A DNA stretch of 64,000 nt from an alpha proteobacterium AAP38. GTDB taxonomy: Bacteria > Pseudomonadota > Alphaproteobacteria > Azospirillales > Azospirillaceae. This document shows, piece by piece, positions 35,859 to 49,788 of this stretch. The position numbers and the translations under genes were made by a program. Location of the stretch: NCBI GenBank assembly GCA_001296005.1, contig LJHR01000047.1:1-64000 (forward strand). The letters run 5' to 3'. Position 1 is the stretch's first letter. The number at the start of each line of letters is the position of its first letter. The notes under the pieces are model-generated. The model had not been told where the DNA came from, searched no databases, and saw only the letters and a list, made by a program, of their open reading frames with translations.

Positions 35859-36728
35859 ATGGCCGATCTGCCGCTGATCCCGCTGTCCAACCGCACCCTC
35901 ATCGCCGTCGGTGGCGATGACCGTATCAGCTTCCTGCAGGGGCTGGTGACCAACGACGTCACCAATCTTGAGGGCAAGGCTGTCTGGTCCGCGCTGCTGA
36001 CGGCGCAGGGCAAATATCTGCATGATTTCATCATCCTGGCCGACGGGGACCGCCTGCTGCTGGATGTGGAGGCGGGGCGGCGGGACGATCTGATCCGCCG
36101 CCTGCGCATGTTCCGCCTGCGGGCCAAGGTGGACCTCACCGACCTGACGGGACAGTTCGCCATCTTCGCCCGGCTGGATGCGGCACAGGCGGAGCGTGGA
36201 ACGGTGACAAGGGTCGAGGGCGGCTGGCAGATTGTCGATCCGCGTCAGGCCGGCCTGGGCCACCGCCTCATCCTGCCAGTCAACACGGTGGCCACCGGCG
36301 ATTTCGCCGACTGGGATCGCACGCGGATGACCCTGGGCATCCCGGACGGCAGCCGTGACCTGATACCGGAGAAGTCCATCCTGCTGGATAATGGCTTTGA
36401 CGAGCTGTCGGGCGTGGCCTGGAACAAGGGCTGCTATGTGGGCCAGGAACTGACGGCACGCACGAAATATCGCGGGCTGGTAAAAAAGCGGCTGCTGCCG
36501 GTGCAGGTGACCGGCCCCCTGCCTGTTGCGGGAACCATCGTCACCCGCGATGGCGCGGATGTCGGTGAAATCCGGTCGGGACATGATGATCTGGCCCTGG
36601 CCCTGATCCGCCTGGACGCCTTGTCGGGGGAGGTTCCGCTGTTGTGCGGTGGGGCAACATTGGCGCCGATGCCGCCTTCCTGGATCAATCTGCCCCGAAC
36701 GGAAGGCGATATGCCAACGAATGGATGA
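35859..36728 (+). CDS. ygfZ: Folate-binding YgfZ/GcvT-family protein
   Basis: A 289-residue GcvT-like protein linked to iron-sulfur cluster assembly or repair with folate. The diagnostic KGCYVGQELTARTKYRG, with its conserved Cys near residue 192, is intact. The N-terminal ISFLQGLVTNDV also matches the family. The C-terminal barrel is short. The stop is followed by 65 bp and then the large HAMP protein gene on the same strand. Confidence 0.93.
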   Translation: MADLPLIPLSNRTLIAVGGDDRISFLQGLVTNDVTNLEGKAVWSALLTAQGKYLHDFIILADGDRLLLDVEAGRRDDLIRRLRMFRLRAKVDLTDLTGQFAIFARLDAAQAERGTVTRVEGGWQIVDPRQAGLGHRLILPVNTVATGDFADWDRTRMTLGIPDGSRDLIPEKSILLDNGFDELSGVAWNKGCYVGQELTARTKYRGLVKKRLLPVQVTGPLPVAGTIVTRDGADVGEIRSGHDDLALALIRLDALSGEVPLLCGGATLAPMPPSWINLPRTEGDMPTNG

Positions 36729-36793
36729 AGTTGGCACAAGAATTGGTTAGTCTCTGCCGCGATTGACCCAATATGAAGCGGCGGGGAGGCAAT

Positions 36794-39478
36794 ATGGAGC
36801 GGGGCACGGGATCGCGGCTGTCGTCGCTGCGCAATCTCAGCACCGCCGTTGCCCTTGGCGCGACGCTGATTGTCGGCGGGCTGGCGGCCGGCGCCACCTT
36901 TCAGATGGCGCAGTTCCAGGTGCAGTCCGGCAGCATGGAAGTGCCGGGCGACCAGCTGGCCAAGACCAGATTGCTGATCGATTTTCAGGACCGCATGGGC
37001 CATGGCGGCTTCCTGTCGGCGCTGGCGCAGTTCGCGGAAACCGGCAATGCCGAGGCGCGGGCTGAAATGCGCACCAGCCTGGAGGCCGCCGATCAGGCCC
37101 TACGCGGATTGCAGGGCAAGCGCCTGACGCCGCAGGAGCTGGAACTGGCCGCCGATCTGAAGCGGTTGCTGGATGGCGCGCGCCGCGCCCTGGAATCGGC
37201 GAATAGCGGCCCTGCCGCCCTGGGCCAGACCACGCCCATCATCCTGCTGACCCGCTATGCCGCCCTGGCCGACCGCATTGATCAGCGCTCACGCGGGCTG
37301 CACGCGGTGGAACTGGCCCGGCTGGAGGAGGTTGCGACTCGCGGCCTGTGGCTGGGCGGGGCCGCCGTTCTGGTGCTGGTGGGCACGCTGTTCGCCTTCC
37401 TCTCGCTGATGGGCGCGCGCGTGCTACGGCCCTTGCGCGAACTGACAGGGGCTGTGAATGGTGTGGCGCGCGGCGACTGGCGCGCCCCCGTCTGGGGGGC
37501 AGAGCGGGAGGATGAGTTCGGGGATCTGGCCCGCGCCATCGACGGCTTCCGCAAACAGGCCGCCGAAATTCCCGACATCTCCGTCGCGACCGAGGATGGC
37601 CGCCTGCGCCTGAAGTTCGAAGGTGATTACGCCGACCTGTTCGAAGCGCTGACCGCCCGGCTGCGCGGGGCCGGCGGGTCGCTGGCCATGCTGGGCAATG
37701 ATGTCAGCCGTATCGTGGGCGACACCAAGCAGCAGTTGAATGACACGCTGGGGCAGGTGAACCAGCTCTGTTCAGCCGCCGTGCGCACCGTGACGGAAAG
37801 CAACCGCGAAATCCGGCAGGCCACGGAGATGCTGGGCCATGCCGTGGCGCAGGTCCGCGCGTTTGACAGCGGTGATGGTCAGGTCGGCCTGGACGATATT
37901 ATCGACGCCCTGCGCGCCAATGCCGACCATCTGGCCGATACCGCCGCCAAGACCGAAACCAAGGTCATCGAAACCCTGGGCAGCCTGTCGGAAAGCGACA
38001 GCGACATCCGTCTGGCCACCGTGGAGGCGCGCGACGCCGCCAAGGCCCTGTCGCACTCCATGGAAGAAGCGCAGCAGGGCCTGCTGTCGGCGGTCAAGCT
38101 GCTGCGCGCCTCGGGCGACCTGCTGGCCAGCACCGTGGATCAGACCGGGTCGCGCATCACGCGGGCCGCCGACAGCATGGAAGAGGGCGAAAAGGCGCTC
38201 TACGCCACCCTGGGCGGCGTCACCAGCCGCTTTGACGAGGCGACGGAAAAGGCCGCCGCCCGTCTGGAGGATGCCGGCATGCAGGTGTCGCGCGCCGCCG
38301 ACCTTCTGGACGATCGCTCATCAGAGATCAGCTACAAGCTGGAAACGGCGCTGGACAGCATGAACCATGCCCGCACCACCCTGCAGCAATCGGCAGAGAT
38401 CGCCGAGGACATGACGCGCGGCAAGCTGGAACCGCTGGCCGACCAGTTCCAGGATATCCAGTTCCGATTCTCCAGCCTGATGGCCGATGTCTCCGACCGG
38501 GCGGACAGCATGGCCGACGCCGTCGATGCCCTGCGCCTGACCAGCGACGGGCTGCGGCAGGAGTTTGAGCGCCGCCGGGTGGAGCCGGGCCAGCATGAAG
38601 CCATTGCCGACCTTCTGACCCGCATGCGCGGCAGCGCCACGCAGATCGGCGACCGGGTGAAGGAGATTGGGGAGACGGCGGGACGTCTGGCGCAGAGCCT
38701 GACGGGCGGCGTTGATGACGCCACCGCCCGCCTGCGCGATCTCACCTCCGACCTGCGGCAGGAAACCAAGGCCCTGTCGTCGGAGGCCCATATCGCCACC
38801 ACCACCCTGTCGCGCACCGTGGGGCAGCAGGAACGGCTGCTGGCCGACATGAAGGATGTCGCCGCCGAACTGGACGCCCAGCGAGACCGGGACAATACCC
38901 CGCAGGCTCTGATCGACCTGACGGGCGGCCTGCGCGCCGCCATCGAGGCGGTGCATGCCCTGGTGGCCAGTGCCGACAACCGCGAGAAGGTGGCCGTGGA
39001 TCAGGCCATGGGGCTGGTCGACAAGTTGCAGCAGCGCATCCTGAATATCGAGGGCATGGCCGGTGGCCTTGCCGCCGCGACCGAGGCGCTGCACGCCCTG
39101 GCCGCCTCCGACAATGCCGGGCGGGAGCGGGAGAATGCCGACCTTCTGGCCATCGCCAACGCGCTGAAGGCCCGTCTGGACGGGATCGACCGGCTGGGCG
39201 ACCGGCTGGACAGCACGACGGATAGCGTGCGCGCCGTTCTGGAAGAAACCCGTGGGCGCGAGCGCACCGATCTGTCCATCGTGTCGGAACTGACGCAGAA
39301 CCTGCGCGAGCGGGTGCTGCGTCTGGATGGTCTGTCGGTGGACCTGTCGCGGGCCATCGATATACTGCGTTCGTCGTCCCGCCAGAGCGAGAATGCCAGC
39401 GCCAACGCCGCCCGCGACCTGGGCACCCGCTTGGCCCAGATCGCCGATCAGCTGCGCGGGGCCGCCGGGGGCGTGTAA
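36794..39478 (+). CDS. Large HAMP-domain coiled-coil membrane protein, chemoreceptor-like without a signalling tip
   Basis: An 894-residue protein with the topology of a methyl-accepting protein. TM1 is at about residues 16-37, a helical periplasmic domain spans about 38-180, TM2 is at about 185-207 (LWLGGAAVLVLVGTLFAFL) and HAMP is at about 208-257 (RPLRELTGAVNG to DEFGDLARAIDGF). The remaining 630 residues are almost pure coiled coil. I cannot find the conserved MCP hairpin-tip sequence or obvious methylation consensus, so it may be a scaffold or a diverged receptor rather than a CheA-coupled one. A GGGGAGG site supports the ATG at 36794; an ATG at 36773 is also possible. Confidence 0.82.
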   Translation: MERGTGSRLSSLRNLSTAVALGATLIVGGLAAGATFQMAQFQVQSGSMEVPGDQLAKTRLLIDFQDRMGHGGFLSALAQFAETGNAEARAEMRTSLEAADQALRGLQGKRLTPQELELAADLKRLLDGARRALESANSGPAALGQTTPIILLTRYAALADRIDQRSRGLHAVELARLEEVATRGLWLGGAAVLVLVGTLFAFLSLMGARVLRPLRELTGAVNGVARGDWRAPVWGAEREDEFGDLARAIDGFRKQAAEIPDISVATEDGRLRLKFEGDYADLFEALTARLRGAGGSLAMLGNDVSRIVGDTKQQLNDTLGQVNQLCSAAVRTVTESNREIRQATEMLGHAVAQVRAFDSGDGQVGLDDIIDALRANADHLADTAAKTETKVIETLGSLSESDSDIRLATVEARDAAKALSHSMEEAQQGLLSAVKLLRASGDLLASTVDQTGSRITRAADSMEEGEKALYATLGGVTSRFDEATEKAAARLEDAGMQVSRAADLLDDRSSEISYKLETALDSMNHARTTLQQSAEIAEDMTRGKLEPLADQFQDIQFRFSSLMADVSDRADSMADAVDALRLTSDGLRQEFERRRVEPGQHEAIADLLTRMRGSATQIGDRVKEIGETAGRLAQSLTGGVDDATARLRDLTSDLRQETKALSSEAHIATTTLSRTVGQQERLLADMKDVAAELDAQRDRDNTPQALIDLTGGLRAAIEAVHALVASADNREKVAVDQAMGLVDKLQQRILNIEGMAGGLAAATEALHALAASDNAGRERENADLLAIANALKARLDGIDRLGDRLDSTTDSVRAVLEETRGRERTDLSIVSELTQNLRERVLRLDGLSVDLSRAIDILRSSSRQSENASANAARDLGTRLAQIADQLRGAAGGV

Positions 39479-39561
39479 CCCGGCATGAGTGAGTAATCTT
39501 CGCTTTCCTCGACTTCCGACACTATTTGCAGTCAAGGAGAAACAACTATCAATACCGGGGG

Positions 39562-40638
39562 TCATTCAGGCGCCATATTCGTCCACGCGGGGTCCGGAAG
39601 GGCTTCGGTGAAATCCAGCGCGTCCACGATCGATTCGCAGCCGGCGGCTGTCAGCGCGCGGACAGCCGGTGCATAAGCCTGAGCTGCGATGAGCCCAACC
39701 GTCTCGGGAAAGCGGCCACGCGCTTCGTCAATGGCGAGTACGGGAACCTCTGAAACCCGACCGCCACCAGACGTCGTCAACACGGCCACCACGGCGACCC
39801 CCTTCAGCCGCAGCCACGCGATCAAGCGGGGCGTGGTCATACCTGCCCCGAAAAGGATGACGGACTGCCCCGCCGGCACCAGGGTGGCGAGATCGTCCTG
39901 CACCCTCAAGGTGGGAATGGGATCGCCGACCGCGCGACCAGCCATCTGGGTACGGGCAAGGATGGCATCGGACAGTTTGGCATCCTCTCCCAACCGTTGC
40001 GCCAACATTTCCTCAATTTCCGGGGTCAAGGCGTCGCGTGTGAGAACCGGATCAGTGCGATTGCGATGGATGGGGGCAAGCGGCTGAAGCCCACGGCCTG
40101 CATAAACACCATCCATCAACATGGTTACATGATCCGATGGCGCGGCGACGACGCCATGCGCATCCATCGCCGCTAATGCGGCTTCCGCCGTGCCGGCAGG
40201 GTGAAAGTAACGGCATTGCGGATTTTCGCTAAGCACCGAGCTTACAAAAGTTCGCAATGAGTTATCTCCGCGCAGCGGACCATCGGCGGGGGGCCAATAC
40301 CCCCGCGCGACAACATAGCGGTACCAGGACAGCACCCGTTGAACAGGGGGACGTATGGTCGTCACCCACATGAACGGACCTGCCCTCGCCCCCGGCAGGC
40401 GGGCCCAGATATCGGACGCCGGCAGATGCGTGGAATAATGGCTATCGAAAGCCCCAGGTGCCGAGAAGGCGGCGTCCAGATGCGCGAGGGTCTGTCGTTT
40501 CTCGTAAAAAGTGGTCAATCGGCCCGGTCCGTCCAGGCGTTGCAAGTACCATAGAAGGGAAGTACCCGCATTCTTGGGCACGTGCAGGTGAAAGACAGGC
40601 GGCTGATGGCTTGGGCGAGAGCGTTTTTCAGTCGTCAT
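39562..40638 (-). CDS. Sulfotransferase with C-terminal Rossmann-like domain
   Basis: A 358-residue protein. The N-terminal part has the 5'-phosphosulfate-binding loop LHVPKNAGTSLLWYL (near residues 18-32) and a later TTIRPPVQRVLSWYRYV, which fits the 3'-phosphate motif of carbohydrate-type sulfotransferases using PAPS. After about residue 255 a different domain begins with SVILFGAGMTTPRLIAWLRL and alternating strands and helices, like a nucleotide-binding or sugar-binding Rossmann fold. Substrate unknown. I prefer the ATG at 40638 (MTTEKRSRP), although one at 40653 is in frame. Flanking DNA is AT-richer than average. Confidence 0.82.
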   Translation of the reverse strand: MTTEKRSRPSHQPPVFHLHVPKNAGTSLLWYLQRLDGPGRLTTFYEKRQTLAHLDAAFSAPGAFDSHYSTHLPASDIWARLPGARAGPFMWVTTIRPPVQRVLSWYRYVVARGYWPPADGPLRGDNSLRTFVSSVLSENPQCRYFHPAGTAEAALAAMDAHGVVAAPSDHVTMLMDGVYAGRGLQPLAPIHRNRTDPVLTRDALTPEIEEMLAQRLGEDAKLSDAILARTQMAGRAVGDPIPTLRVQDDLATLVPAGQSVILFGAGMTTPRLIAWLRLKGVAVVAVLTTSGGGRVSEVPVLAIDEARGRFPETVGLIAAQAYAPAVRALTAAGCESIVDALDFTEALPDPAWTNMAPE

Positions 40639-40804
40639 TAACCCTGCGCCCATGTGATAGAATCAATGCTGATGACAGTAAAACCCAAAAGTACCACATG
40701 CCCGTTCGAGGACGCAGGAACAATTCCGACATCCAGCTGTTGATTTCACACGGGTCCAGAAGTCCACCGGACCCGTGTGCAAGGAAAGCAGAAGGAGACG
40801 CACC

Positions 40805-41317
40805 ATGCGCTCGCAACTGATCGGTGCCGCCACCCTGACGGCCCTGCTGCTGGGGACCGCTGCCATGGCCCAGACGGTACCGCCCGGCACCACTGAGCCC
40901 GTGCCCCCGGTTCCAGGGACCACAGAACCAGGTCAGGTGGGCGAACCGCCCGCCGCCATAATGCCCGAACGCGATACGCCGCCCAGCATTCTGGCCGAAC
41001 CGCGCCACGGCATCGACCGCACCTCTGCCGAGCGCCTGCTTGGCCGAACCGTGATCGGTGCCGATGGCAAGGAACTGGGTGAGGTCGAGGATGTGATCCT
41101 GAATGCCAGCAGCGGCGACGCCGAGAAGCTGGTCATCGCGTCCGGCGGTTTCATGGGTCTGGGCGAGAAGAACGTCGCCGTCGATATCAGCGACGCCGAC
41201 ATGCTGGCCGGGAACAACCATATCCAGGTCCGAAACCTGACCACAGCGCAGTTGGATCAGATGGCAGCGTTCGAATATGGCAAGAACACCCGTTCCCTGA
41301 TCCGACCCAATAAATAA
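40805..41317 (+). CDS. Exported PRC-barrel domain protein
   Basis: A 170-residue protein with a signal peptide (residues 1-22, ending AAMAQ) and a Pro/Thr/Glu-rich linker (about 23-62). A PRC-barrel follows at about residues 73-140 (AERLLGRTVIGADGKELGEVEDVIL to NVAVDISDADM). PRC barrels are small beta structures found in photosynthetic H subunits and RimM; exported versions are common in alphaproteobacteria and may respond to envelope stress. The ATG at 40805 has a clear AGAAGGAGA site. A strong terminator follows. Confidence 0.88.
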   Translation: MRSQLIGAATLTALLLGTAAMAQTVPPGTTEPVPPVPGTTEPGQVGEPPAAIMPERDTPPSILAEPRHGIDRTSAERLLGRTVIGADGKELGEVEDVILNASSGDAEKLVIASGGFMGLGEKNVAVDISDADMLAGNNHIQVRNLTTAQLDQMAAFEYGKNTRSLIRPNK

Positions 41318-41355
41318 GCGGCTGCCAGGGCCACGAAACGCCAGCGTCCCAGCCT

Positions 41356-41393
41356 GCCCCCGGCCCACCCCCTCCTGGGCCGGGGGCTTTTTT
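41356..41393 (+). terminator. Terminator of the PRC-barrel gene
   Basis: Perfect 12-bp arms GCCCCCGGCCCA (41356-41367) and TGGGCCGGGGGC (41376-41387) are followed by six T residues. It lies 39 nt after the stop and separates this gene from the DUF4198/HupE operon. Confidence 0.92.
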
Positions 41394-41525
41394 GTGCGGT
41401 CTATTATGCTGTGCGTGCCAGGAATACGGGGGATGCTTTCGTGAAGGGGCCGTCCAACAATGACGGAATCCGAGCACCTGCTGGCACGCTGTTCCCATAA
41501 ACCCATAGAACAGGGATACGGGAAC

Positions 41526-42269
41526 ATGAAACGGATGAAGCATCTTCTCGCCGCGATCCTGGCCATCGCGGCGCTGGGTGGTGGCATGGCGGCGCAGGCC
41601 CATGGCATCTGGTTCGCGCAGCGGGCCAAGCAGACGGCCCTGATCTATGGCGTCGGCGCCGACGATCTGGACATGGTGAAGCGCCTGGGCCTGATCACCG
41701 GCACCTATGGCTATGACGCGGACTGGGCCCCGGTGGGCGCTACCTTGCGCGCCGCCGGCCCCATTGTCGTGGTGGATAGCGAGGCGCCGACGGTTGCCGT
41801 CGCCGCTGCCATGGATAACGGCCTTTGGTCGCGCCTGGCTGATGGGAAGTGGGTGAAGGGCGGACGTGATACAGTCCCGGATGCCGTACGGGCGGAACGC
41901 ACCATGAAGTTCGCGGTCCACCTGACCGGCACACCCAACGCCCCCATTCCCGTTCTGCCCGAGCAGCTTTTGCAGATCGTTCCTGTCGATAAGACAATCC
42001 CGGCAGAGATGGGCAAGCCGCTGACGATCCGTGTTCTGTACAAGGGAAAGCCGGTCAAAGACGCTGAGGTCAAGCATGACTATGTCAATGATCCCGACCA
42101 AGCGCCGGTAAAGACCGACAAGGATGGCGTCGCCACCATCAAGGTTCGCAATCAGGGCCTGAACGTGCTGGCTGCCACCTATGTCGGCCCCGCCGACAAT
42201 CCCAAACAGGTGGACCATGTCGAATATCTGGCCACCCTGTCCTTCGTGCTGGCCCACGCGCCGGAATAA
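41526..42269 (+). CDS. DUF4198 periplasmic protein, putative metal-uptake component
   Basis: A 247-residue exported protein of the DUF4198 group, whose relatives accompany nickel and cobalt uptake systems (NikM-like). The signal peptide is about residues 1-24, ending MAAQA, and the mature chain begins HGIWFAQR, leaving an N-terminal histidine as a possible metal ligand. Beta-rich domains include LTIRVLYKGKPVKDAEVKHD and DKDGVATIKV. The ATG at 41526 (MKRMKHLLAA) has a GGGA site; an earlier ATG adds a polar leader. It opens a tight four-gene operon with gaps of about 10 bp. Confidence 0.85.
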   Translation: MKRMKHLLAAILAIAALGGGMAAQAHGIWFAQRAKQTALIYGVGADDLDMVKRLGLITGTYGYDADWAPVGATLRAAGPIVVVDSEAPTVAVAAAMDNGLWSRLADGKWVKGGRDTVPDAVRAERTMKFAVHLTGTPNAPIPVLPEQLLQIVPVDKTIPAEMGKPLTIRVLYKGKPVKDAEVKHDYVNDPDQAPVKTDKDGVATIKVRNQGLNVLAATYVGPADNPKQVDHVEYLATLSFVLAHAPE

Positions 42270-42279
42270 GGAGATCAGG

Positions 42280-42660
42280 ATGAAGCACCCGATGATCCGG
42301 CTGGCGCTGGCCGCCACCCTGACCCTGTCGCCGCTAGCCGCCCTGGCCCATGGCGACACCACGCCCAAGCATGGCGGCATCGTCCAGATGACGGGCGAAA
42401 CATTGATCGAACTAGTGGCCGGCGCCGACGCGGCCAGTATCTATGTCAGCGAGGAGGACGAGCCCGTCCCCAGCGCCGACCTGACCGCTACCATGACCAT
42501 CATGGATGCGGGCGGGAAGCGTCAGGTGAACCTGACGCCCGCCGCCGGCAACCGCTTCGACGCGCCGGGCGTAAAGCTGACCAGTGGGGCCAAGGTAGCG
42601 GTGATGGTGGTCAACAAGGCCAGCCAAGCCCGCTCCATTCTGTCCTTCACCGTCAAGTGA
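42280..42660 (+). CDS. Small periplasmic protein with predicted N-terminal histidine
   Basis: A 126-residue exported protein without a recognised domain. The signal peptide runs to about residue 23 (LSPLAALA), after which the mature chain starts HGDTTPKHGGIVQMTGET, with two His near the front. The rest alternates short strands, as in a small beta-sandwich, ending RSILSFTVK. An AAGGAG site precedes the ATG at 42280. Its place between the DUF4198 and HupE genes makes it a likely metal-binding or chaperone partner; this is inferred from context. Confidence 0.78.
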   Translation: MKHPMIRLALAATLTLSPLAALAHGDTTPKHGGIVQMTGETLIELVAGADAASIYVSEEDEPVPSADLTATMTIMDAGGKRQVNLTPAAGNRFDAPGVKLTSGAKVAVMVVNKASQARSILSFTVK

Positions 42661-42671
42661 CGGGGCGGGCG

Positions 42672-43415
42672 ATGCGGCTGCTCCCCTTGTCATTGACCAA
42701 CGGGGGCGGCCGCGCCGTCCCCCTACTTGTCGCGGCCCTGCCCTGGCTGGTGATCCTGGCCCAGCTGATCTGGGCACCCCATGCCATGGCGCATGGCGTG
42801 TCAGAGGAAGACCGATCCTTCATCGAGGATGCGCAGGGTGTGCATGTCATCCCTTATATCTATCTGGGGGCCAAGCACATGGTCACCGGCTACGACCATC
42901 TGCTGTTCCTGGTGGGCGTGATCTTCTTCCTTTACCGGCTGCGTGACGTCGCTGCTTACGTCACCCTGTTCGCGGTCGGTCATTCCACCACCCTGCTGCT
43001 GGGCGTTCTGGCCGACATCCGGGCCGATGCCTATATCATCGACGCCATCATCGGCCTGTCGGTGGTCTACAAGGCGCTGGACAATCTGGGGGCCTTCAAG
43101 ACCTGGATGGGTTTTCAGCCCAATACCAAGGCTGCCGTCCTGATCTTCGGCTTCTTCCACGGTTTCGGTCTGGCGACCAAGCTGCAGGAACTGTCGCTGT
43201 CGCCTGACGGGCTGCTGGCCAATCTGGTCAGCTTCAATGTCGGGGTGGAGATTGGGCAGTTCATGGCCCTGTGCCTGATCCTGATCGCCATGAATGCCTG
43301 GCGCACAACGCGCAGCTTCAACCGTTCCGTCCTGCTGGCCAATGGCGCGCTGATGGCCGCCGGCCTGACGCTGGTGGGATATCAATTGGCCGGCTATGCC
43401 ACCCAATCCGCCTGA
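42672..43415 (+). CDS. HupE/UreJ-family membrane transporter
   Basis: A 247-residue polytopic protein of the HupE/UreJ group, whose members carry nickel or related metals. An N-terminal signal-like segment ends PHAMA, so the mature protein would begin HGVSEEDRSF. The H-x5-DH motif is present as KHMVTGYDHLLFL near residue 75. The second motif region reads FGFFHGFGLATKLQE and lacks the second His of classical HupE. The ATG at 42672 is used; a GTG at 42657 overlapping the previous stop is also possible. Six or seven membrane segments are visible. Confidence 0.88.
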   Translation: MRLLPLSLTNGGGRAVPLLVAALPWLVILAQLIWAPHAMAHGVSEEDRSFIEDAQGVHVIPYIYLGAKHMVTGYDHLLFLVGVIFFLYRLRDVAAYVTLFAVGHSTTLLLGVLADIRADAYIIDAIIGLSVVYKALDNLGAFKTWMGFQPNTKAAVLIFGFFHGFGLATKLQELSLSPDGLLANLVSFNVGVEIGQFMALCLILIAMNAWRTTRSFNRSVLLANGALMAAGLTLVGYQLAGYATQSA

Positions 43416-43427
43416 GGGGGATCAACG

Positions 43428-44033
43428 ATGACCGATATAAGCGTGACACCTTATCAGGCCTCGCCCCGCGCCCTGATTCGGGCCGGGCTGGGGGCCGTGG
43501 CGGCCTCTGCCCTGGTGCTGACCCTGTTCGTGCTGCCGGCTGAATATGGGATCGACCCGACGGGGGCCGGTAACGCCCTGGGCCTGACCAGGCTGGCCGG
43601 CGGCGGGGGTGAGGCAGCGGAACCGGCACCCACCGCGCCCGTTGCCACACCGGTGGCCCCCGGCACCCCGACACCGGCGGATATCGCCAAATCCACCGCC
43701 ATGCGCAGCGACCGCCAGGAACTGATCCTGCCGCCCCATTCAGGGGCGGAAGTGAAGGCCCATATGGCGCAGGGCGATCATTTCATCTTCCGCTGGCAAG
43801 CGACGGGCGGGCAGGTGCGGTTCGACATGCATGGCGAACCACCCAATGCGAAGGAGGGCGAATTCTCCAGCTACTGGAAGGCCAAGGACCTGGACAGCGC
43901 CCAGGGTGCCTTCACGGCCCCCTTCACCGGTACCCATGGCTGGTATTTCCGCAATCGCGGCGACACGCCGGTAACTGTGGTGGTGGAGACAGCTGGCTTC
44001 TACCAGGACCTGTATCTGCCACCGGCGGAGTGA
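43428..44033 (+). CDS. Membrane-anchored periplasmic protein of the HupE operon
   Basis: A 201-residue protein with one N-terminal membrane segment (about residues 20-37, GLGAVAASALVLTLFVLP) and a Gly/Pro/Ala-rich linker to about residue 88. The C-terminal periplasmic domain holds His residues in LPPHSGAEVKAHMAQGDHFIF, WQATGGQVRFDMHGE and TGTHGWYFRN, which suggests metal or ligand binding. Similar proteins are labelled transmembrane anchor proteins. It is the last gene of the operon, 12 bp after the HupE gene, and ends at a hairpin shared with metF. Confidence 0.82.
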   Translation: MTDISVTPYQASPRALIRAGLGAVAASALVLTLFVLPAEYGIDPTGAGNALGLTRLAGGGGEAAEPAPTAPVATPVAPGTPTPADIAKSTAMRSDRQELILPPHSGAEVKAHMAQGDHFIFRWQATGGQVRFDMHGEPPNAKEGEFSSYWKAKDLDSAQGAFTAPFTGTHGWYFRNRGDTPVTVVVETAGFYQDLYLPPAE

Positions 44034-44049
44034 GCGCGACTGCGCTCAC
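44030..44049. terminator. Compact hairpin shared by two convergent genes
   Basis: Arms GTGAGCGC (44030-44037) and GCGCTCAC (44042-44049) with a 4-nt loop overlap the stop codons of both the anchor-protein gene and metF. On the plus strand CCTTTCG follows. It probably serves both directions. Confidence 0.55.
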
Positions 44050-44981
44050 CCTTTCGCCGCACGAACGCCCAGCATGTGGCAGATGGCAACCGTCAGGTCG
44101 GCGCGGTTCATGGTGTAGAAGTGGAACTGCTTCACACCATGCTTTTCCAGATAGCGGCACTGTTCAATGGCGACCGTGGCGGCAACCAGATGCCGGGTCT
44201 CCGGTGCCTCGTCCAGCCCGTCGAACAGGTCGCGCATCCAGGCGGGGATGGCGGTATTGCACTTCTCCCCCATTTCCGCCGCCTTGGTGAAGTTCAGAAT
44301 CGGCAGGATGCCGGGGACCATCGGTACATCAATGCCGGATGCTGCGGCCTTGTCGCGGAAGCGCAGGAAGGCGTCCACATCAAAGAAGAACTGGCTGATG
44401 GCGCGGTTGGCCCCTGCATCGACCTTGCGCTTCAGATTGTCCAGATCGACCTGGGCGCTGGGCGCTTCGGGATGCACTTCCGGGAAACAGGCGACGGAGA
44501 TGTCGAAATCGCCGATGCGCTTCAGACCCGCCACCAGATCGGCGGCATAGGCATAACCGCCAGGATGCGGTTCATACCCACGCCCGCCCAGGCCGCCGGT
44601 ACCATCGGCACGCGGCGGCGGATCACCGCGCAGGGCCACGATATGGCGGATGCCGGCGTCCCAGTAATTGCGCGCAATCTCGTCGATCTCTTCCTTGGTC
44701 GCCGCCACACAGGTCAGGTGGGCGGCGGCGGGAATGCCGGTTTCGGCCTGGATGCCCGTCACGGTGGCGTGGGTGCGTTCGCGCGTCGATCCACCGGCGC
44801 CATAGGTGACCGACATGAAGGCCGGGTTCAGCGGCGCCAACCGGCGGATGGCCGTCCACAGATTCTCATGCATCTTCTCCGTCTTGGGCGGGAAGAACTC
44901 GAAACTGACGGTGAGGTCGCCGGGGGCGGTGATCAGCGGGGCCGGGTTGGCGGCGGCATCCATCAGGGCGCTCAGGCTCAT
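44046..44981 (-). CDS. metF: 5,10-Methylenetetrahydrofolate reductase
   Basis: A 311-residue flavoenzyme that reduces methylene-THF to methyl-THF, supplying methyl groups for methionine synthesis. The TIM-barrel start VSFEFFPPKTEKMHENLW, the YGAGGSTRERTHATV loop and the C-terminal VPGILPILNFTKAAEM are conserved. It begins 11 bp after the ArsR-methyltransferase gene and so shares its promoter and the dyad at 45988-46011. Confidence 0.97.
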   Translation of the reverse strand: MSLSALMDAAANPAPLITAPGDLTVSFEFFPPKTEKMHENLWTAIRRLAPLNPAFMSVTYGAGGSTRERTHATVTGIQAETGIPAAAHLTCVAATKEEIDEIARNYWDAGIRHIVALRGDPPPRADGTGGLGGRGYEPHPGGYAYAADLVAGLKRIGDFDISVACFPEVHPEAPSAQVDLDNLKRKVDAGANRAISQFFFDVDAFLRFRDKAAASGIDVPMVPGILPILNFTKAAEMGEKCNTAIPAWMRDLFDGLDEAPETRHLVAATVAIEQCRYLEKHGVKQFHFYTMNRADLTVAICHMLGVRAAKG

Positions 44982-44992
44982 GGGACTATCCT

Positions 44993-45958
44993 TCAGGCGA
45001 CAGCCAGCGGACGGGACCGCGTGGCAGGGGCATCGGTGCGGGTAGCCCGCCAGATGCAGACAGTAAGGGGATCACCCGGCAGGGTGACGACGGGATCGGG
45101 GCGCATGCCGGCCCGGCGCAGCCAGCCGGAGACTTCATCATCGGTGAAGCCCAGGCGGCGATGCGCGTGCTGTTCACGCAGATATTCAAGATCATGGCGG
45201 GCGAAATCGACCACCAGCATGGTGCCGCCGGGGCGCAGGACCCGTGCCGCCTCGGCCAGCGCATCGGCCGGTTCCTCGGCATAATGCAGCACCTGATGGA
45301 AGATCACGGCATCCTGGCTCTGCCCGGCCAGGGACAGCTGATACATATCGCCCAACCGCACCTGACAATGACGCAGGCCCGCCTGTTCCAGGTTGACGCG
45401 GGCAACCGCCAGCATCTCGCGCGAGGCGTCAACGCCCAGACCGCGCGAAATCCGCTCCCCGAACAGTTCCAGGATGCGGCCCGTACCGGTGCCGACATCC
45501 AGCAAATCCTCCACACCCGTGGCCGGCAGCAGCGACAGCAAGGCCGCCTCCACATCACGCTCCGGCACATGCAGGCCGCGCATCTCGTGCCAGCGGGCGG
45601 CGTTCTCGCTGAAATACTTGTCCGCCGCCTGTCGCCGCCCCTGCTTGATCAGGTCCAGACGTTCCAGGTCCAGGCCCAGCCCCTCATCATCGCCGGGAAT
45701 GGCATCGACCAGGGTACGGGCCAGTTCGGCAACCGGGCCACGTTCGGCCAGCCGGTAATAGGCCCAGATACCCTCACGGAACCGCTCCAGCAGCCCCGCC
45801 TCGCACAGAAGCTTCAGGTGACGGGAGACGCGCGGCTGGCTTTGCCCCAGGATCTGGGTAAGCTCCGTCACCGTCAGTTCGCCATGGGCGCAGAGCGACA
45901 GCAGCCGCAACCGCGTCGGCTCCGCCGCTGCCTTTAGCGCATTCAACAGGAATTCCAT
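44993..45958 (-). CDS. ArsR-family regulator fused to a SAM-dependent methyltransferase
   Basis: A 321-residue fusion. Residues 1-85 are an ArsR winged helix (AAAEPTRLRLLSLCAHGELTVTELTQ, QSQPRVSRHLKLL). Residues of about 140-280 are a class I methyltransferase fold with the SAM loop LDVGTGTGRILE and RVLRPGGTMLVVDF. No thiolate metal-binding CxC motif of ArsR/SmtB is seen in the recognition helix. Context with metF and a perfect dyad upstream suggests a methionine-cycle regulator of the SahR kind that senses SAH or SAM; whether the methyltransferase is active is unknown. The ATG at 45958 gives MEFLLNALKAAAE. Confidence 0.9.
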   Translation of the reverse strand: MEFLLNALKAAAEPTRLRLLSLCAHGELTVTELTQILGQSQPRVSRHLKLLCEAGLLERFREGIWAYYRLAERGPVAELARTLVDAIPGDDEGLGLDLERLDLIKQGRRQAADKYFSENAARWHEMRGLHVPERDVEAALLSLLPATGVEDLLDVGTGTGRILELFGERISRGLGVDASREMLAVARVNLEQAGLRHCQVRLGDMYQLSLAGQSQDAVIFHQVLHYAEEPADALAEAARVLRPGGTMLVVDFARHDLEYLREQHAHRRLGFTDDEVSGWLRRAGMRPDPVVTLPGDPLTVCIWRATRTDAPATRSRPLAVA

Positions 45959-45987
45959 GCGACCCGACCCGTTCCTTGTTCGGATCA

Positions 45988-46011
45988 AGATATAAAGATA
46001 TCTTTATGTCT
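45988..46011. promoter_or_regulatory. Operator of the metF operon (SahR-like dyad)
   Basis: The perfect 16-bp palindrome ATAAAGATATCTTTAT at 45992-46007 is extended by AGA and TCT to a 24-bp dyad with a single mismatched pair. It lies 30 bp upstream of the ArsR-methyltransferase start. It is very AT-rich in a GC-rich genome and resembles motifs assigned to S-adenosylhomocysteine-responsive ArsR-type regulators. Autorepression of the regulator and metF is the simplest reading. Confidence 0.78.
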
Positions 46012-46245
46012 GCGCAAGACCCGATCCGGCGCAGCGAACGTATCGGCCCCGCGCCGAACGCGGTTCACAACGACAATGCCATCGCGATATGGCTTTTGCG
46101 CCGCAGATCGGACGCAATTGCCGGCTATCCATGAGCATGACAAATGGTTAATGCCATGGATAACCGGACGTGATGCGCGTCACTGCCGATGGCCCGGCCA
46201 CCGGAAATGATGACGCCAAGTGCAAAAAGGATTGATGACGTGACC

Positions 46246-46905
46246 ATGCAGACCCAAAACCGCCGTTCGCCGCTGGCCGCTGCCGCATTCTGGATGCTGG
46301 CCGGTGTGGCCGCCGTCGCGGTGCCGGTTCTGGCCCCCACTGCCGTGCAGGCCCAGGCCGCCAAGGGCCAGGCCTCCGCCGACTTCGTGCAGGGGCTGGG
46401 CGACAAGGCCATTGCCACCCTGGCCGACCCGAAGGTCAGCAAGGATCAGGCGAAGGCCGTGTTCCGCGACCTGCTGAACCAGAATTTCGACATCAACACG
46501 ATCAGCCGCTTCGTGCTGGGCCGTTACTGGAATCTCGCCAACGACGCCCAGAAGAAGGAATACCAGACCCTTTTCGAGCAGATGATCGTTGAGGTCTATG
46601 CCGAACGTTTCAGCCAGTATGCGGGCGAGAAGTTCAAGGTGGGCGGCGCCCAGGCCTCGGGCGAGAATGACGCTATCGTCACCTCGCAGGTGCTGCGCCC
46701 CAACGGCCAGCCGCCCGTGAACGTGTCCTGGCGCGTGCGCTCCAAGGATGGCAGCTTCAAGATCATCGACGTGATCGTGGAAAACGTGTCGATGAGCGTG
46801 ACGCAGCGGTCGGAATTCGCCAGCCTGATCGAAAGCAATGGCGGCAAGTTCGAAGCCCTGCTGGATGCGCTGCGCCAGCGTATTCAGACGGCGGCCGTGA
46901 AGTAA
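46246..46905 (+). CDS. MlaC/Ttg2D-family periplasmic lipid-binding protein
   Basis: A 219-residue exported protein of the MlaC (toluene-tolerance Ttg2D) family. MlaC carries phospholipids across the periplasm; related HpnM handles hopanoids. The signal peptide is about residues 1-36, ending VQAQA. The domain shows VFRDLLNQNFDINTISRFVLGRYW, EYQTLFEQMIVEVYA and the late SMSVTQRSEFASLIESNGG. No other mla or hpn gene is near. The ATG at 46246 is used, but a GTG at 46240 has a better spaced AAAAAGG site. Confidence 0.9.
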   Translation: MQTQNRRSPLAAAAFWMLAGVAAVAVPVLAPTAVQAQAAKGQASADFVQGLGDKAIATLADPKVSKDQAKAVFRDLLNQNFDINTISRFVLGRYWNLANDAQKKEYQTLFEQMIVEVYAERFSQYAGEKFKVGGAQASGENDAIVTSQVLRPNGQPPVNVSWRVRSKDGSFKIIDVIVENVSMSVTQRSEFASLIESNGGKFEALLDALRQRIQTAAVK

Positions 46906-46942
46906 CGGTACAGCCTGGACGTTTGTTTGTGCTATGTGACGG

Positions 46943-46974
46943 GTCCGTTCCGGTTGTCCGGGACGGATCTTTTT
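46943..46974 (+). terminator. Terminator of the MlaC-like gene
   Basis: An 11-bp stem, with arms at 46943-46953 and 46958-46968 and a TTGT loop, is followed by CTTTTT. It lies 38 nt after the stop. It also argues that the next gene starts at 46993 rather than at an upstream in-frame codon. Confidence 0.85.
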
Positions 46975-46992
46975 CATTGGCGCCGGGTGGCG

Positions 46993-47790
46993 ATGCTTCG
47001 CGAGTTCCTGATCAGCCTGCGCACGCGCTGCGCACCCGCGTTCGTGCGGCTGGGATACCGCTATGCCGCCGTTGCTTGTGTCGGGCGTGCGGCCCGTTGC
47101 GCCGCCGCCTGGGCCCCGCATCAGGAAAGCACGCGACGCCGCATCCTGACCGCCATGGCAGAGGCCCCGGCGGGTTGCAACACGGCGGTGATCCTGGGCG
47201 CTGGCCCTTGTCTGGACCTGCCCATGGCGGAACTGCTGTCACGGTTCCGGCGGGTGCTGCTGGTCGATATCGCCCACCCCCCCGCCGCACGCGAACTGGC
47301 CCGCCGTCATGCGGCCATCGAACTGCTGGATTACGACCTGACGGGGGTAGCAATCGCCCTTGCTAATGGCAGCACGCAGGCCCCGCCCACCCCATCCTGT
47401 ACCGTCTGTCAGGATGATGGCGATGTCGGGCTGGTCGTATCGGCCAATCTGATCTCGCAATTGCCGCTGGTGCCGCTTCGCCAGGTGGACAAGCGCTGGC
47501 CCAGCACCGACCTGCCTTCCTATGCCCGCTCCATTATCAGGGCCCATATCGACCATCTGCGCGGATTTGACTGCCCGACCCTGCTGATCGGCGACGTTCA
47601 GCGGCGGGTCATTGATCCCGATGGGCGGGTGACGGAGATGGAGGACCCGCTGTTCGGGGCCGACCTGCCGGCAGGCGAAATGGAGTGGGACTGGACGGTG
47701 GCGCCGGTCGGTGAACTGTCCAACGGCTGGTCCATTATCAACCGCGTCCGCGCCGTACGGATCGACCGCGCCTATTGCGTGGCGTCGTAA
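46993..47790 (+). CDS. Hypothetical protein with a methyltransferase-like glycine loop
   Basis: A 265-residue soluble protein I cannot assign. An Arg/Ala-rich N-terminal helix is followed near residue 65 by AVILGAGPCLDLPMAELL, then RRVLLVDIAHPPAAREL. This spacing resembles motifs I and II of class I methyltransferases or a dinucleotide-binding fold. A later segment LVVSANLISQLPLVPL could be the strand-4 region. It also has Cys pairs (CTVCQDDGD). The ATG at 46993 follows a GGGTGG site and a terminator. Its end overlaps the convergent solute-binding gene by 19 bp. Confidence 0.72.
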   Translation: MLREFLISLRTRCAPAFVRLGYRYAAVACVGRAARCAAAWAPHQESTRRRILTAMAEAPAGCNTAVILGAGPCLDLPMAELLSRFRRVLLVDIAHPPAARELARRHAAIELLDYDLTGVAIALANGSTQAPPTPSCTVCQDDGDVGLVVSANLISQLPLVPLRQVDKRWPSTDLPSYARSIIRAHIDHLRGFDCPTLLIGDVQRRVIDPDGRVTEMEDPLFGADLPAGEMEWDWTVAPVGELSNGWSIINRVRAVRIDRAYCVAS

Positions 47791-48527
47791 CGCGCCATGA
47801 TGGCGTCGTAGGTTCCGTCGGCCTTTACCCGGCGCAGCGCGTCGTTGAACCGGGCCACCAGGGCCGGATCGCGGAAGGCCGCACAGTAGAGGTTGGGCGG
47901 AAACAGCCGGTGTTCCACGATCGGCAGGCTGCGGACAGGATCACCGCCCGCCGCCAGTACCTGTCCGATATGATATTGCAGCACCCGCGACTCGCCGATC
48001 AGCACATCATAGCGACCGAAAAGCAGCCCCTTGGCCTGCAGGGCCTGCACAGGCTCCTCCCGGTAATCCTCCGAGTTTGCCACGGCTGCGGCAAATTCAG
48101 CGCCCAGCACCTTGGACGCCCGCTGAAAGGCCAGCACCCGCAGCCCCGTCAGGTCACCGGGGGTTTCAAGCTGGATATTGCGCGATATCAGAGTGATCGC
48201 CACGTTGCGATAGGTGATGTAGCTGTCGGTCAGGATCAGACCGTCCGGCGGCGGACCCACCACGGGTGCGAAACCATCGATGGTCCCCTCCCCCGCCGCC
48301 AGGGCCAGACGGGCATTGGAACCGATATAGGGCTCCATCTCCATCCCGGCAGCGGCGAAGATGGCGGCCAGCAACTCATACTCCACCCCCCGCAGTTTCC
48401 CGTCCGGCGTCGTTTCCACCAGGGGTGCTGCCTCCCGCAGGCCGAACCGCACCTTTTCCGCCCGCGCCGTGAGGGCACAGGACAGAAACAGCATGCAGAG
48501 TAGGGGCAGCATAAAATGCCGGCGCAT
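47772..48527 (-). CDS. Family 3 extracellular solute-binding protein
   Basis: A 251-residue periplasmic protein with a signal peptide (residues 1-23, LPLLCMLFLSCALTARA). The SBP_bac_3 fold binds polar amino acids or similar ligands: VRFGLREAAPLVETTPDGKLRGVEYELLAAIF near the N-terminus and DGTYDAIMARYD at the C-terminus are typical. Family lobes are complete. No ABC permease or ATPase gene is adjacent, so it may be an orphan binding protein serving a sensor or a distant transporter. Confidence 0.88.
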   Translation of the reverse strand: MRRHFMLPLLCMLFLSCALTARAEKVRFGLREAAPLVETTPDGKLRGVEYELLAAIFAAAGMEMEPYIGSNARLALAAGEGTIDGFAPVVGPPPDGLILTDSYITYRNVAITLISRNIQLETPGDLTGLRVLAFQRASKVLGAEFAAAVANSEDYREEPVQALQAKGLLFGRYDVLIGESRVLQYHIGQVLAAGGDPVRSLPIVEHRLFPPNLYCAAFRDPALVARFNDALRRVKADGTYDAIMARYDATQ

Positions 48528-48623
48528 GGGATGAACCGTTGCGGAAGGCTTGAAAGGATTAACCTTTAACAGCCTAACAAATTGCGGCGGCGAAGGAATG
48601 CGCGCAGGGGGATAGGATCGGCC

Positions 48624-48974
48624 TTACGGGGATGGGCGGCCATTCAACTTGGCGGCCAGATCGGGCGCAATCGGCTGTGGTAGGAACGCCGAGATATTGG
48701 AGCGACCGCTGTTGCCAAGCGGTGCCCTTCCCGTGACGGAGCCAGGCACGGCAAGGACAAGCCGGAACAGTTGCCCCCTGATTTCCCGCCAGTCACCCGT
48801 GGCCAGCCCCAGGTTCAGCATCCGCAGATGCACGCGGGCATGCTGCCACCAATCCATCTGGCCCAGGATATGGGCGCGTTCCAGTGCCGCCCAGGCGGCG
48901 GCCACATCCCCACCGGCCCGCGCCTGGCGGTAGGAGACAAGTTCATCTTCCACCAGGGCGCGGAGGTCCGACAT
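48624..48974 (-). CDS. DUF3703 domain protein at the end of the che operon
   Basis: A 116-residue soluble helical protein matching DUF3703. Hallmarks are AWAALERAHILGQ, WWQHARVHLRMLNLG and the later WREIRGQLFRLVLAVPGS. The His/Trp-rich helices suggest a compact bundle, possibly metal- or ligand-binding. Its ATG at 48974 is 1 bp from the cheR stop, so it is the last gene of the chemotaxis operon. No function in chemotaxis is known to me. Confidence 0.87.
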   Translation of the reverse strand: MSDLRALVEDELVSYRQARAGGDVAAAWAALERAHILGQMDWWQHARVHLRMLNLGLATGDWREIRGQLFRLVLAVPGSVTGRAPLGNSGRSNISAFLPQPIAPDLAAKLNGRPSP

Positions 48975-48975
48975 G

Positions 48976-49788
48976 TTACTTGGCCAGGATGTAAAGACCG
49001 CGCTGGCCTTCCATCGGCTTGAACTTTTCCGTGATACCCAGAACTGTTTCGGCGCCACCAAGGTAAAGCACGCCATCCGGCGGCAGCAGCTTGGCCATGG
49101 CTTCCAGCACCTTGCCCTTGGTCGGCTGATCAAAATAGATCAGGACGTTGCGGCAGAAGATGACATCGAACTGGCCCAGCGGGGTCAGGTCGGTCAGCAG
49201 GTTGTATTCGCGGAACTGGACCTTGTTACGGATCTCGTCATTCAGCTGCCACTTGTCGCCCACCTGCTTGAAATACTTCACCAGATGGGTGATGGGCAGG
49301 CCGCGCTGCACCTCAAACTGGGTGTAGAGGCCGGCCTTGGCCTTGTTCACCATTTCGCCCGACAGGTCGGTGCCGATGATCTCGATCCGCCAACCGGCCA
49401 GCTTAGCCCCTTCCTCGTTCAGCAGCATGGAAAGCGAATAGGCTTCCTGGCCGGACGAGCAGGCGGCGGACCAGATGCGGATGGTCCGCTTGGCGGCACG
49501 GCTGGCCAGCAACGCCGGCAGCACCACCGCCTTGAACTGGTCAAATGGCTTCTGGTCGCGGAAGAACGAACTTTCGTTCGTGGTCATTGCTTCCGTGATG
49601 TCGCGGAGCAACGCCTCATCCCGCTTGCTGCGCACAGCGGCGGCCAGTTCATCCAGCCCTTTCAGACTCCATTTGCGGGCAACCGGCATCAACCGGCTTT
49701 CCAGCAGATAGGCCTTGTCGGGGGTCAGGACCAGACCCGACCGCTGCCTCAGCAGGGTGCAGAACATATCGAAATCTTCGACCTTCAT
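48976..49788 (-). CDS. cheR: Chemotaxis protein methyltransferase CheR
   Basis: A 270-residue SAM-dependent enzyme that methylates glutamates of chemoreceptors during adaptation. The N-terminal helical domain is followed by the SAM-binding SAACSSGQEAYSLSMLL near residue 110 and NVLIYFDQPTKG near residue 220. GGAETVLGITEKF closes the domain. It overlaps cheB by 4 bp. Confidence 0.97.
   Translation of the reverse strand: MKVEDFDMFCTLLRQRSGLVLTPDKAYLLESRLMPVARKWSLKGLDELAAAVRSKRDEALLRDITEAMTTNESSFFRDQKPFDQFKAVVLPALLASRAAKRTIRIWSAACSSGQEAYSLSMLLNEEGAKLAGWRIEIIGTDLSGEMVNKAKAGLYTQFEVQRGLPITHLVKYFKQVGDKWQLNDEIRNKVQFREYNLLTDLTPLGQFDVIFCRNVLIYFDQPTKGKVLEAMAKLLPPDGVLYLGGAETVLGITEKFKPMEGQRGLYILAK

Follow-up and report, generated by a model that had tools for sequence, protein, structure and literature searches.

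Do four adjacent genes, three of whose predicted products expose an N-terminal histidine, make up a metal-handling system of the cell envelope, and is that histidine a new trait? The question is posed by a locus in a window of 64 000 nucleotides (the whole stretch of DNA analysed) from the alphaproteobacterium AAP38 (contig LJHR01000047.1). A sequence-only reading had placed the mature starts of the three proteins at HGIW, HGDT and HGVS, had interpreted the operon as a metal system and had regarded the shared N-terminus as the strongest candidate for an undescribed system.

Operon layout and the N-terminal histidines

The four genes occupy positions 41526–44033 of the + strand, as judged from the open reading frames (ORFs) of the window, and are separated by gaps of 10, 11 and 12 bases. 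Owing to these short gaps and to a terminator-like hairpin just upstream (a consensus match, which alone is no proof of function), they are likely to form one transcription unit (Table 1). An alternative GTG start of the HupE gene at 42657 would overlap the stop codon of the small-protein gene. A pattern search for a conserved operator upstream caught four congeners in addition to the window; three of them are so similar, and the fourth so divergent, that they give no indication of one.

Table 1. Predicted features of the operon and its upstream flank.
Feature	Position	Strand	Remarks
Terminator-like hairpin	41356–41387	+	Gap between upstream PRC-barrel gene and operon; 12 pairs, then T run (pattern scan)
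DUF4198 (NikK-like) exported protein	41526–42269	+	Mature from 41601 (HGIW), predicted
Small exported Ig-like protein	42280–42660	+	Mature from 42349 (HGDT), predicted
HupE/UreJ_2 permease	42672–43415	+	Mature from 42792 (HGVS), predicted; H29-x5-D35-H36
Anchored protein	43428–44033	+	N-terminal helix, residues 13–40; GOLD-like domain, about residues 91–192 (predicted)

The AxA rule and conservation agree on the three predicted cleavage sites, AQA/HGIW in the DUF4198 protein, ALA/HGDT in the small protein and AMA/HGVS in HupE. With the window sequence included, position −1 is Ala in 27/27 DUF4198 rows, 27/29 small-protein rows and 79/81 HupE rows, and Ser in the rest. Among the relatives alone, His1 is found in 80/80 HupE proteins, in 28/28 small proteins encoded in the operon and in 26 of 27 DUF4198 proteins, the 27th (locus L009) being split between frames and unreadable. 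The following residue varies: the first two positions are HG in 71, HN in five and HA in four HupE proteins, and HG in 15, HA in nine and HS in two DUF4198 proteins; all 28 small proteins have HG. Conservation across relatives, expected earlier for His-Gly as a unit, therefore extends to His1 and not to Gly2, and the unit as such is ruled out. A crude signal-peptide rule, applied to conserved ORFs of these loci that belong to other families, gave a rough background of 2/73 for His at +1; the same rule gave 55/98 for the three operon families, the shortfall arising because it misplaces cleavage sites. At the predicted mature N-termini, conservation of His1 is thus far above chance. These loci are the 80 best-scoring of 585 confirmed HupE matches and no random sample; the candidate search used six peptides, one of which spans the AH of the cleavage site.

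The trait itself is already described. A 2025 Nature Communications article reports an N-terminal His in nickel-binding DUF4198 proteins and in HupE/UreJ-2 permeases, the `anglerases' Ang-1 and Ang-2 (PMC12537917). As two of the three families are covered there, we have dropped the claim of an undescribed N-terminal histidine.

The four proteins and their relatives

The DUF4198 protein matches PF10670 with 72.4 bits (cut-off 34) and has a homologue of solved structure, the nickel protein 9GCB (profile match, E 2.1e-10), which gives it a metal setting. It resembles the IsDUF4198 (NikK-like) protein in being homologous and exported, with His1 following the signal peptide; the excerpted account of the latter names His1 and His18 as the nickel ligands and states a preference for nickel over copper (PMC12537917). 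It differs in being co-encoded with HupE, small and anchored proteins and in lacking His18: residue 18 is Val in 23 and Ile in four of the 27 rows, with His in none, which rules out the published His1/His18 nickel site. Furthermore, the window protein has no His at residues 2–106, and a single additional His before residue 60 is present in 3/27 rows. Informal reading of the window ORFs disclosed no nickel ECF/ABC transporter, the companion used to recognize nickel-brace DUF4198 proteins.

The permease matches PF13795 (HupE_UreJ_2) with 190.8 bits (cut-off 24.5). Residues His1, H29, D35, H36, H64 and H123 are present in 81/81 rows (window included), as is G124; the H-x5-DH motif (mature H29...D35-H36) noted earlier is thus fully retained, together with F-H-G (H123, G124), and we take these two motifs to mark the family. 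Anglerases belong to the same permease family and likewise carry an N-terminal His after cleavage (PMC12537917). Their N-terminal domains bound copper best and their linker lies at residues 175–184 (PMC12537917). In contrast, the window permease lacks the β-sandwich domain of about 175 residues, has 27 residues between His1 and H29, and has its soluble partners and its GOLD-like subunit as separate proteins.

The small protein matches no Pfam or NCBIfam family above cut-off and has no convincing sequence relative in the PDB (no E below 0.03). The mature protein contains two His, H1 and H8 (HGG), both invariant in 29 rows, and four scattered Met (14, 49, 52 and 86). Its AlphaFold2 model (pLDDT 94.2) is matched best by CrdA (9LL4; VIA Z 11.2, r.m.s.d. 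2.5, 91 aligned residues), followed by FetP, HftA and FtrA/P19 (Z 8.6–10.3, the highest value being that for FetP, 5I0X/3NRQ), with other VIA rows at 8.4 and less; the best Foldseek rows have E values of 1.4e-3 and 1.5e-3, none being at 0.001 or better. The predicted model suggests that CrdA and FetP/P19 are the nearest folds. FetP and P19 are longer than the window protein and have an FTR1-type permease as partner. CrdA of H. pylori may share the predicted fold and is encoded with a Czc-type pump, but differs in that the passages describing it give it no His and a Met-rich motif (PMC9182242). Outside the operon, all 29 relatives fetched adjoin a heavy-metal RND gene (CzcA/CusA-type), as do both paralogues in the host genome, which gives this protein too a metal setting; no RND gene was seen beside the copy in the window on reading its ORFs. 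The first residue of the RND-linked relatives is His in 12/29, Asp in 13/29 and another residue in 4/29, so that constancy of His1 among small-protein relatives applies within the operon and not beyond it.

Neither Pfam nor NCBIfam contains a family that matches the anchored protein at E values up to 1, and the PDB yielded no sequence relative with E below 0.03. It is predicted to have no cleavage site and a single N-terminal helix. The AlphaFold2 model (pLDDT 88.2) superimposes on the GOLD domain of TMED1 (7RRM) with a VIA Z of 12.7 and an r.m.s.d. of 2.0 over 95 aligned residues, and the top three Foldseek rows are all GOLD domains (E 9.1e-06). The soluble part would therefore share the fold of the GOLD domains of p24/TMED and SEC14-like proteins, from which the window protein differs in being bacterial, in its N-terminal helix, in its tie to a permease and in matching no sequence family; as modelled, it is a membrane-anchored GOLD-like domain that is apparently new. 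It had been described as rich in His; it has five (104, 112, 118, 135 and 170), and across 49 rows invariance is confined to His135 and His170.

Gene neighbourhoods and distribution

HupE and the anchor gene occur together, in the same orientation, in 80/80 loci, and in a separate sample (the best 30 places) the two are fused in 9 of 30 fetched loci. Two such samples of 30 loci were taken, namely the best 30 of 35 places and the best 30 of 48. Flanks measured about 4 kb for the 80 loci and 1.5 kb for the genome samples; as these are limited stretches, some of them truncated where a contig stops, the neighbour counts are lower bounds. Neighbours were named from Pfam scans of ten representatives, from annotated plasmid genes of the same cluster or otherwise by reading (e.g. 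the CsoR-like cluster). The DUF4198 or small protein occurs in 28 of the loci, 27 of which carry both; the remaining one, L006, has the small protein at the contig start and was assigned to this group by hand for the neighbour counts. Gene order is altered in L035, L041 and L078. In a quick tree, the DUF4198/small-protein pair is joined to HupE–anchor pairs of different clades, with at least three label changes on starred branches, which may include losses as well as gains.

The two groups of loci differ in their surroundings. A TonB-dependent receptor is present in 11/28 DUF4198/small-protein loci and in 0/52 HupE–anchor-only loci, whereas a metal-resistance neighbour (RND, NreB-like MFS, RcnR/CsoR-like, CDF, ChrA/B or P-type ATPase gene) is present in 3/28 and 36/52, respectively. 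The pairs beside resistance genes consist of the same two genes, with His1 and the GOLD-like partner, and lack the DUF4198 and small proteins; many pairs adjoin such genes, which gives HupE and the anchor their metal setting. Annotated neighbours include nickel/cobalt and chromate genes, and five annotated plasmids, from Klebsiella, Acinetobacter, Pseudomonas, Roseomonas and Shewanella, combine the pair with resistance genes. The anchored protein has matches in 389 of 72,556 plasmid records, two of them over at least 80% of its length, and its plasmid relatives are annotated `transmembrane anchor protein' or `hypothetical protein', for which a fold and a partner are now proposed.

Proposed function and rival explanations

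Relatives of every component thus occur in metal settings, which upholds the metal-system reading in part; the second nickel ligand of the published site is absent from DUF4198, which does not support the reading as first worded. Our preferred reading, held tentatively and with rather less than even confidence, is that the four genes encode an envelope system which captures a divalent metal, cobalt or nickel being the likeliest, and transfers it, with import favoured. It draws on the constancy of His1 against the low background, the linkage and occasional fusion of HupE and anchor, the union of the DUF4198/small-protein pair with several HupE–anchor clades and in altered gene orders, the homology to 9GCB and the nearest folds of the small protein. 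Here we infer topology, metal, direction, order of hand-over and the role of each His. Signal peptidase would expose a free N-terminal His on the DUF4198 protein, the small CrdA/P19-like protein and HupE. In the periplasm, the two soluble proteins would bind the metal, as such or as a chelate, and deliver it to HupE at its outer mouth; the entry path there may run from His1 to H29-x5-DH. The anchored GOLD-like protein would be a dedicated second permease subunit, its invariant His135 and His170 lying in the periplasm as a dock or gate. Import over export is favoured for the four-gene version by the distribution of TonB receptors, and cobalt is the likelier need because a CobN-family match is present in the genome of the host, whereas urease alpha and NiFe hydrogenase gave no match there. 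Weighing against this explanation are the requirement of the published nickel brace for His18 (PMC12537917), the absence of any Rfam element at gathering score within 36000–50000 and that of RcnR/CsoR family matches from the host genome.

A wider proposal, possible but doubtful as a whole, is that HupE, together with the membrane-anchored GOLD-like protein, constitutes a metal permease of two subunits that is widespread, occurs also on enterobacterial plasmids and is distinct from single-component HupE/UreJ. In the present branch this permease would be fed by two separate N-terminal-His carriers, with metal passing from His to His between proteins. The roles suggested for the anchored permease partner and the small third protein are new as proposals; among the matches listed in the open-licence literature, we noticed none that treats the four-gene set or the anchored protein, nor any that connects a GOLD domain with metals in bacteria. 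A likely role is thereby offered for a small unclassified protein adjoining CzcA/CusA-type pumps, and metal hand-over between free N-terminal histidines becomes testable, with three such proteins in one natural operon. One of the two proposed carriers is related to a small protein encoded in operons for heavy-metal RND pumps.

The strongest rival, which we consider unlikely, is a tolerance module in which HupE and its GOLD-like subunit move nickel/cobalt (or zinc) across the inner membrane while the small protein feeds RND pumps whose genes lie elsewhere in the genome. The resistance genes near most HupE–anchor-only loci and the efflux pumps beside small-protein relatives and host paralogues point to this and weigh against the preferred reading; the five plasmids also favour it, as does locus L197, where a window-type operon of a congener abuts an RcnR–TolC–RND–MFS–HupE–anchor island. 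Moreover, Sphingobium sp. ba1 grown in 10 mM nickel is reported to up-regulate a HupE/UreJ gene more than any other (PMC5557971). Against it, the loci with DUF4198 and small proteins seldom have a resistance neighbour and more often a TonB receptor, and some HupE/UreJ proteins are reported as nickel importers (cited in excerpts of PMC5557971 and PMC11247825).

It is improbable that the operon serves uptake of iron delivered via a TonB-dependent siderophore receptor. Several four-gene operons adjoin siderophore-annotated TonB receptors and PepSY proteins, and the titles of FetP, HftA and FtrA/P19, possible fold relatives of the small protein, describe binding of copper and iron. In addition, two DUF4198 proteins of Caulobacter respond to iron, with strong induction both when it is scarce and when Fur is lost (PMC3751524, PMC11870441), which counts against a cobalt or nickel cargo. 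However, the HupE–anchor pairs elsewhere accompany nickel, cobalt and chromium resistance genes and not iron genes, no siderophore-type TonB receptor was seen adjoining the operon on reading the window ORFs, and the host has, elsewhere in its genome, a separate DUF4198–DUF2271-like–PepSY-like gene set of the kind that is iron-regulated in Caulobacter (PMC3751524, in part).

There is likewise little probability that the cargo is copper instead of cobalt or nickel, with a CopC/CopD-like or P19-like system whose N-terminal His sites hold Cu(II). The copper preference of the anglerase domains counts against cobalt or nickel, CrdA, the best fold match, is a copper resistance determinant, and in Massilia litorea a CopC–CopD–copper oxidase cluster adjoins the operon; but the published DUF4198 protein favoured nickel, the annotated neighbours of HupE–anchor pairs are as listed above, and the Met-rich character of CrdA is not seen in the window protein. 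An accessory role in handling metal freed when the organic part of an imported chelate is catabolized is very improbable: beyond the TonB receptors and PepSY proteins, neighbours of four-gene operons include FAD oxidoreductases, aldehyde and tartrate dehydrogenases, haloacid dehalogenase II and an acyltransferase, but no such genes were seen beside the window operon on reading its ORFs. Retention of His1 for protein structure or processing, to which the frequent Asp at position 1 of RND-linked relatives might point, is the least credible, as structures of DUF4198 and HupE/UreJ-2 members show the N-terminal His coordinating metal (PMC12537917).

The host also encodes, on contig C43, a second HupE/UreJ_2 protein with a long N-terminus that apparently starts with HEIG, as judged by reading. 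DUF6488 and His-rich small proteins occur close to HupE elsewhere.

Operon layout and N-terminal histidines

The four closely spaced genes are preceded by a terminator-like hairpin and form an operon that is real, conserved and probably metal-handling. The signal peptides of the DUF4198 protein, the small protein and the permease (HupE) all close with an AxA motif, and the mature chains are predicted to start HGIW, HGDT and HGVS, respectively, as in the sequence-only reading, while the fourth (anchored) protein has a single N-terminal helix and no AxA-type cleavage site. We compared the 80 best-scoring of 585 confirmed HupE matches in named genomes, fetched with flanks of about 4 kb, so that neighbour counts are lower bounds. 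At these loci (L-numbers), the first residue after predicted cleavage, His1, is present in 80/80 HupE proteins, 28/28 small proteins within the operon and 26/27 DUF4198 proteins, the 27th being split between frames. Of the shared HG start, His1 held and Gly2, which varies, did not. AH is found at the N-terminus in 55 more HupE rows from other searches (54 plus L091), which take in the window itself and repeated records, and the only HupE paralogue with a long N-terminus (L082) starts HEIG by reading. A crude signal-peptide rule, which misplaces sites, gave His at +1 in 55/98 proteins of the three operon families and in 2/73 conserved ORFs from elsewhere in these loci; judged from predicted N-termini, the trait is not chance.

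Coordinates and assignments of the operon and associated features
Feature	Position	Strand	Assignment
Operon	41526-44033	+	four genes
Gene 1		+	DUF4198, PF10670
Gene 2			small protein, no family above its cut-off
Gene 3		+	HupE/UreJ_2, PF13795
Gene 4			anchored protein, no Pfam or NCBIfam match
Downstream genes	44046-45988	-	metF-like; ArsR-type regulator fused to methyltransferase (read from sequence); no hint of operon link
His-rich protein directly 5' of HupE	L190:10276-10671		small, no Pfam family
His-rich protein directly 5' of HupE	L191:9127-9510		small, no Pfam family
His-rich protein directly 5' of HupE	L023:3377-3808		small, no Pfam family
His-rich protein directly 5' of HupE	L059:3546-3914		small, no Pfam family

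A closely matching HupE (94-98% identity) occurs in 4/10 other genomes of the host genus searched, adjoined in all four by the other three genes. In the congener G467 (L197) the window-type operon adjoins an RcnR-TolC-adaptor-RND-MFS-HupE-anchor island with its own anchor gene split between frames, and in Indioceanicola the operon is divergent to a CzcA operon. Frame-split copies (DUF4198 in L009, HupE in L138, anchor in L144 and L197) reflect decay or sequencing errors. Two of the four His-rich proteins are placed between the small protein and HupE.

The HupE-anchor pair

The anchor gene lies 3' of HupE on the same strand at 80/80 best-scoring loci. The protein was found in 35/398 genomes sampled across the phylum; at the 30 best places fetched, window included, HupE is next to or fused with it in 28 (19 adjacent, one of them broken, and nine one-frame fusions), of the remaining two, L144 is a broken copy and L145 lies at a contig end. 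That the genes are fused or strictly linked argues, on gene arrangement, for the anchored protein being a subunit of the permease. Across 49 rows, the invariant features include H135, H170-G-W and a P-x-E-x3-DP stretch following the helix. The AlphaFold2 model (pLDDT 88.2) runs from the helix through a poorly ordered linker to a β-sandwich, and the best structural matches of this predicted model are GOLD domains. Foldseek returned three GOLD rows (first E 9.1e-06); in VIA, a second-look structural alignment of AlphaFold2 models, rows 1-5 are GOLD domains by title (TMED1: Z 12.7, r.m.s.d. 2.0, 95 aligned) and rows 6-8 are SEC14-like proteins, which also carry a GOLD domain.

DUF4198 and/or the small protein accompany the pair at 28 of the 80 loci (27 with both), with an RND gene at 3/28 and a TonB receptor at 11/28; HupE-anchor stands alone at 52. 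Fetched flanks of 36/52 contain RND, NreB-like MFS, RcnR/CsoR-like, CDF, ChrA/ChrB or P-type ATPase genes; those of 16/52 contain none of these resistance-type genes, and a clustered TonB receptor is found in 0/52. Plasmids carry the pair with ncrA, ncrB and rcnA (Klebsiella), CzcA (Acinetobacter, Shewanella), chrA and a metal-sensing repressor (Pseudomonas) or nickel/cobalt efflux (Roseomonas). The gene most up-regulated by Sphingobium sp. ba1 in nickel was a HupE/UreJ gene within an NreB-RND cluster (excerpts of PMC5557971). The anchored protein matches 389 plasmid records (147 Klebsiella; 221 predicted conjugative).

A quick tree built from 133 HupE rows places 39/44 rows with DUF4198/small protein in one 40-row clade (SH-aLRT 99). 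This label needs six changes, at least three of them forced by starred branches; the changes could be either losses or gains. Gene order is altered in L035, L041 and L078. Most simply read, the DUF4198/small pair became associated with HupE-anchor pairs on more than one occasion, an argument for a functional connection.

The small protein

The model of the small protein (pLDDT 94.2) is an eight-stranded Ig-like sandwich. Foldseek, in which no match reached E 0.001 and CrdA ranked second at 1.5e-3, is not decisive alone. VIA placed Helicobacter pylori CrdA at the top (Z 11.2), followed by FetP, HftA, Tp34 and FtrA/P19 (8.6 to 10.3), interspersed with an uncharacterised DUF4426 protein (9.8) and a designed cage protein (8.8); remaining rows score 8.4 and less. 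A profile search found relatives in 33/398 genomes of the phylum. A CzcA/CusA-type RND gene adjoins the relative at 29/29 loci fetched outside the host genome (of 32 places), and adjoins both paralogues within it; an RND gene likewise lies beside the relative on two annotated plasmids. CrdA, alike in predicted fold, is also encoded with a Czc-type pump (excerpts of PMC9182242). Position 1 of these RND-linked relatives, by reading, is His in 12/29, Asp in 13/29 and other in 4/29; His1 is not fixed among them. A DUF6488 protein, possibly a stand-in for the small protein, follows the HupE-anchor pair in L018, L020, L023, L024, L026, L028, L029, L072 and L094 (assigned by Pfam for L018 and L094, by cluster for the remainder).

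DUF4198, published families and possible cargo metals

The shared N-terminus had been put forward as a candidate undescribed system; two of the three N-terminal-His families are already published (excerpts of PMC12537917), and the new parts are the putative anchored subunit, GOLD-like in predicted fold, and the partner that resembles CrdA. The main text of that paper mentions none of GOLD, an anchor protein, RND, CzcA, a relay or DUF6488. Its excerpts report the N-terminal His as 79% conserved in DUF4198 and a solved member with Ni bound via His1 and His18. The window protein is homologous; however, residue 18 is V (23/27 rows) or I (4/27), and the window protein has no further His before residue 107.

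Our guess for the cargo is cobalt first and nickel second. The host may make cobalamin and need cobalt, because a CobN-family match is present; urease alpha, RcnR/CsoR and NiFe hydrogenase families had no match in its genome, where controls did. Against cobalt or nickel stands iron: excerpts of PMC3751524 place two Caulobacter DUF4198 proteins in the Fur regulon and describe induction of a PepSY/DUF2271/ApbE-type DUF4198 set by iron limitation. One of the two, CC3061, is also down in a zur mutant (excerpts of PMC4176598). Copper stands against them as well, since the N-terminal-His domains Ang-1 and Ang-2 of HupE/UreJ-2 proteins both bind Cu; Ang-1 also binds Ni and has DUF4198 among its prevalent neighbours (PMC12537917, excerpts). 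The window HupE has no Ang domain.

DUF4198 proteins of the operon subfamily also occur without a nearby HupE, adjoining PepSY or a TonB receptor (L192, L193). Host contig C13 carries two DUF4198 paralogues (L083, L084), the former grouped by reading with PepSY-, DUF2271- and ApbE-like genes. Chains of PDB entries 9MHI-9MHO match the DUF4198 profile (E 2.5e-07) under the name phosphoribosylglycinamide formyltransferase, which looks wrong. At L191, L194, L195, L200 and L201, four-gene operons lie beside genes that may form a chelator-use pathway, in differing combinations: TonB receptors, PepSY, FAD oxidoreductases, haloacid dehalogenase II, aldehyde and tartrate dehydrogenases and an acyltransferase.
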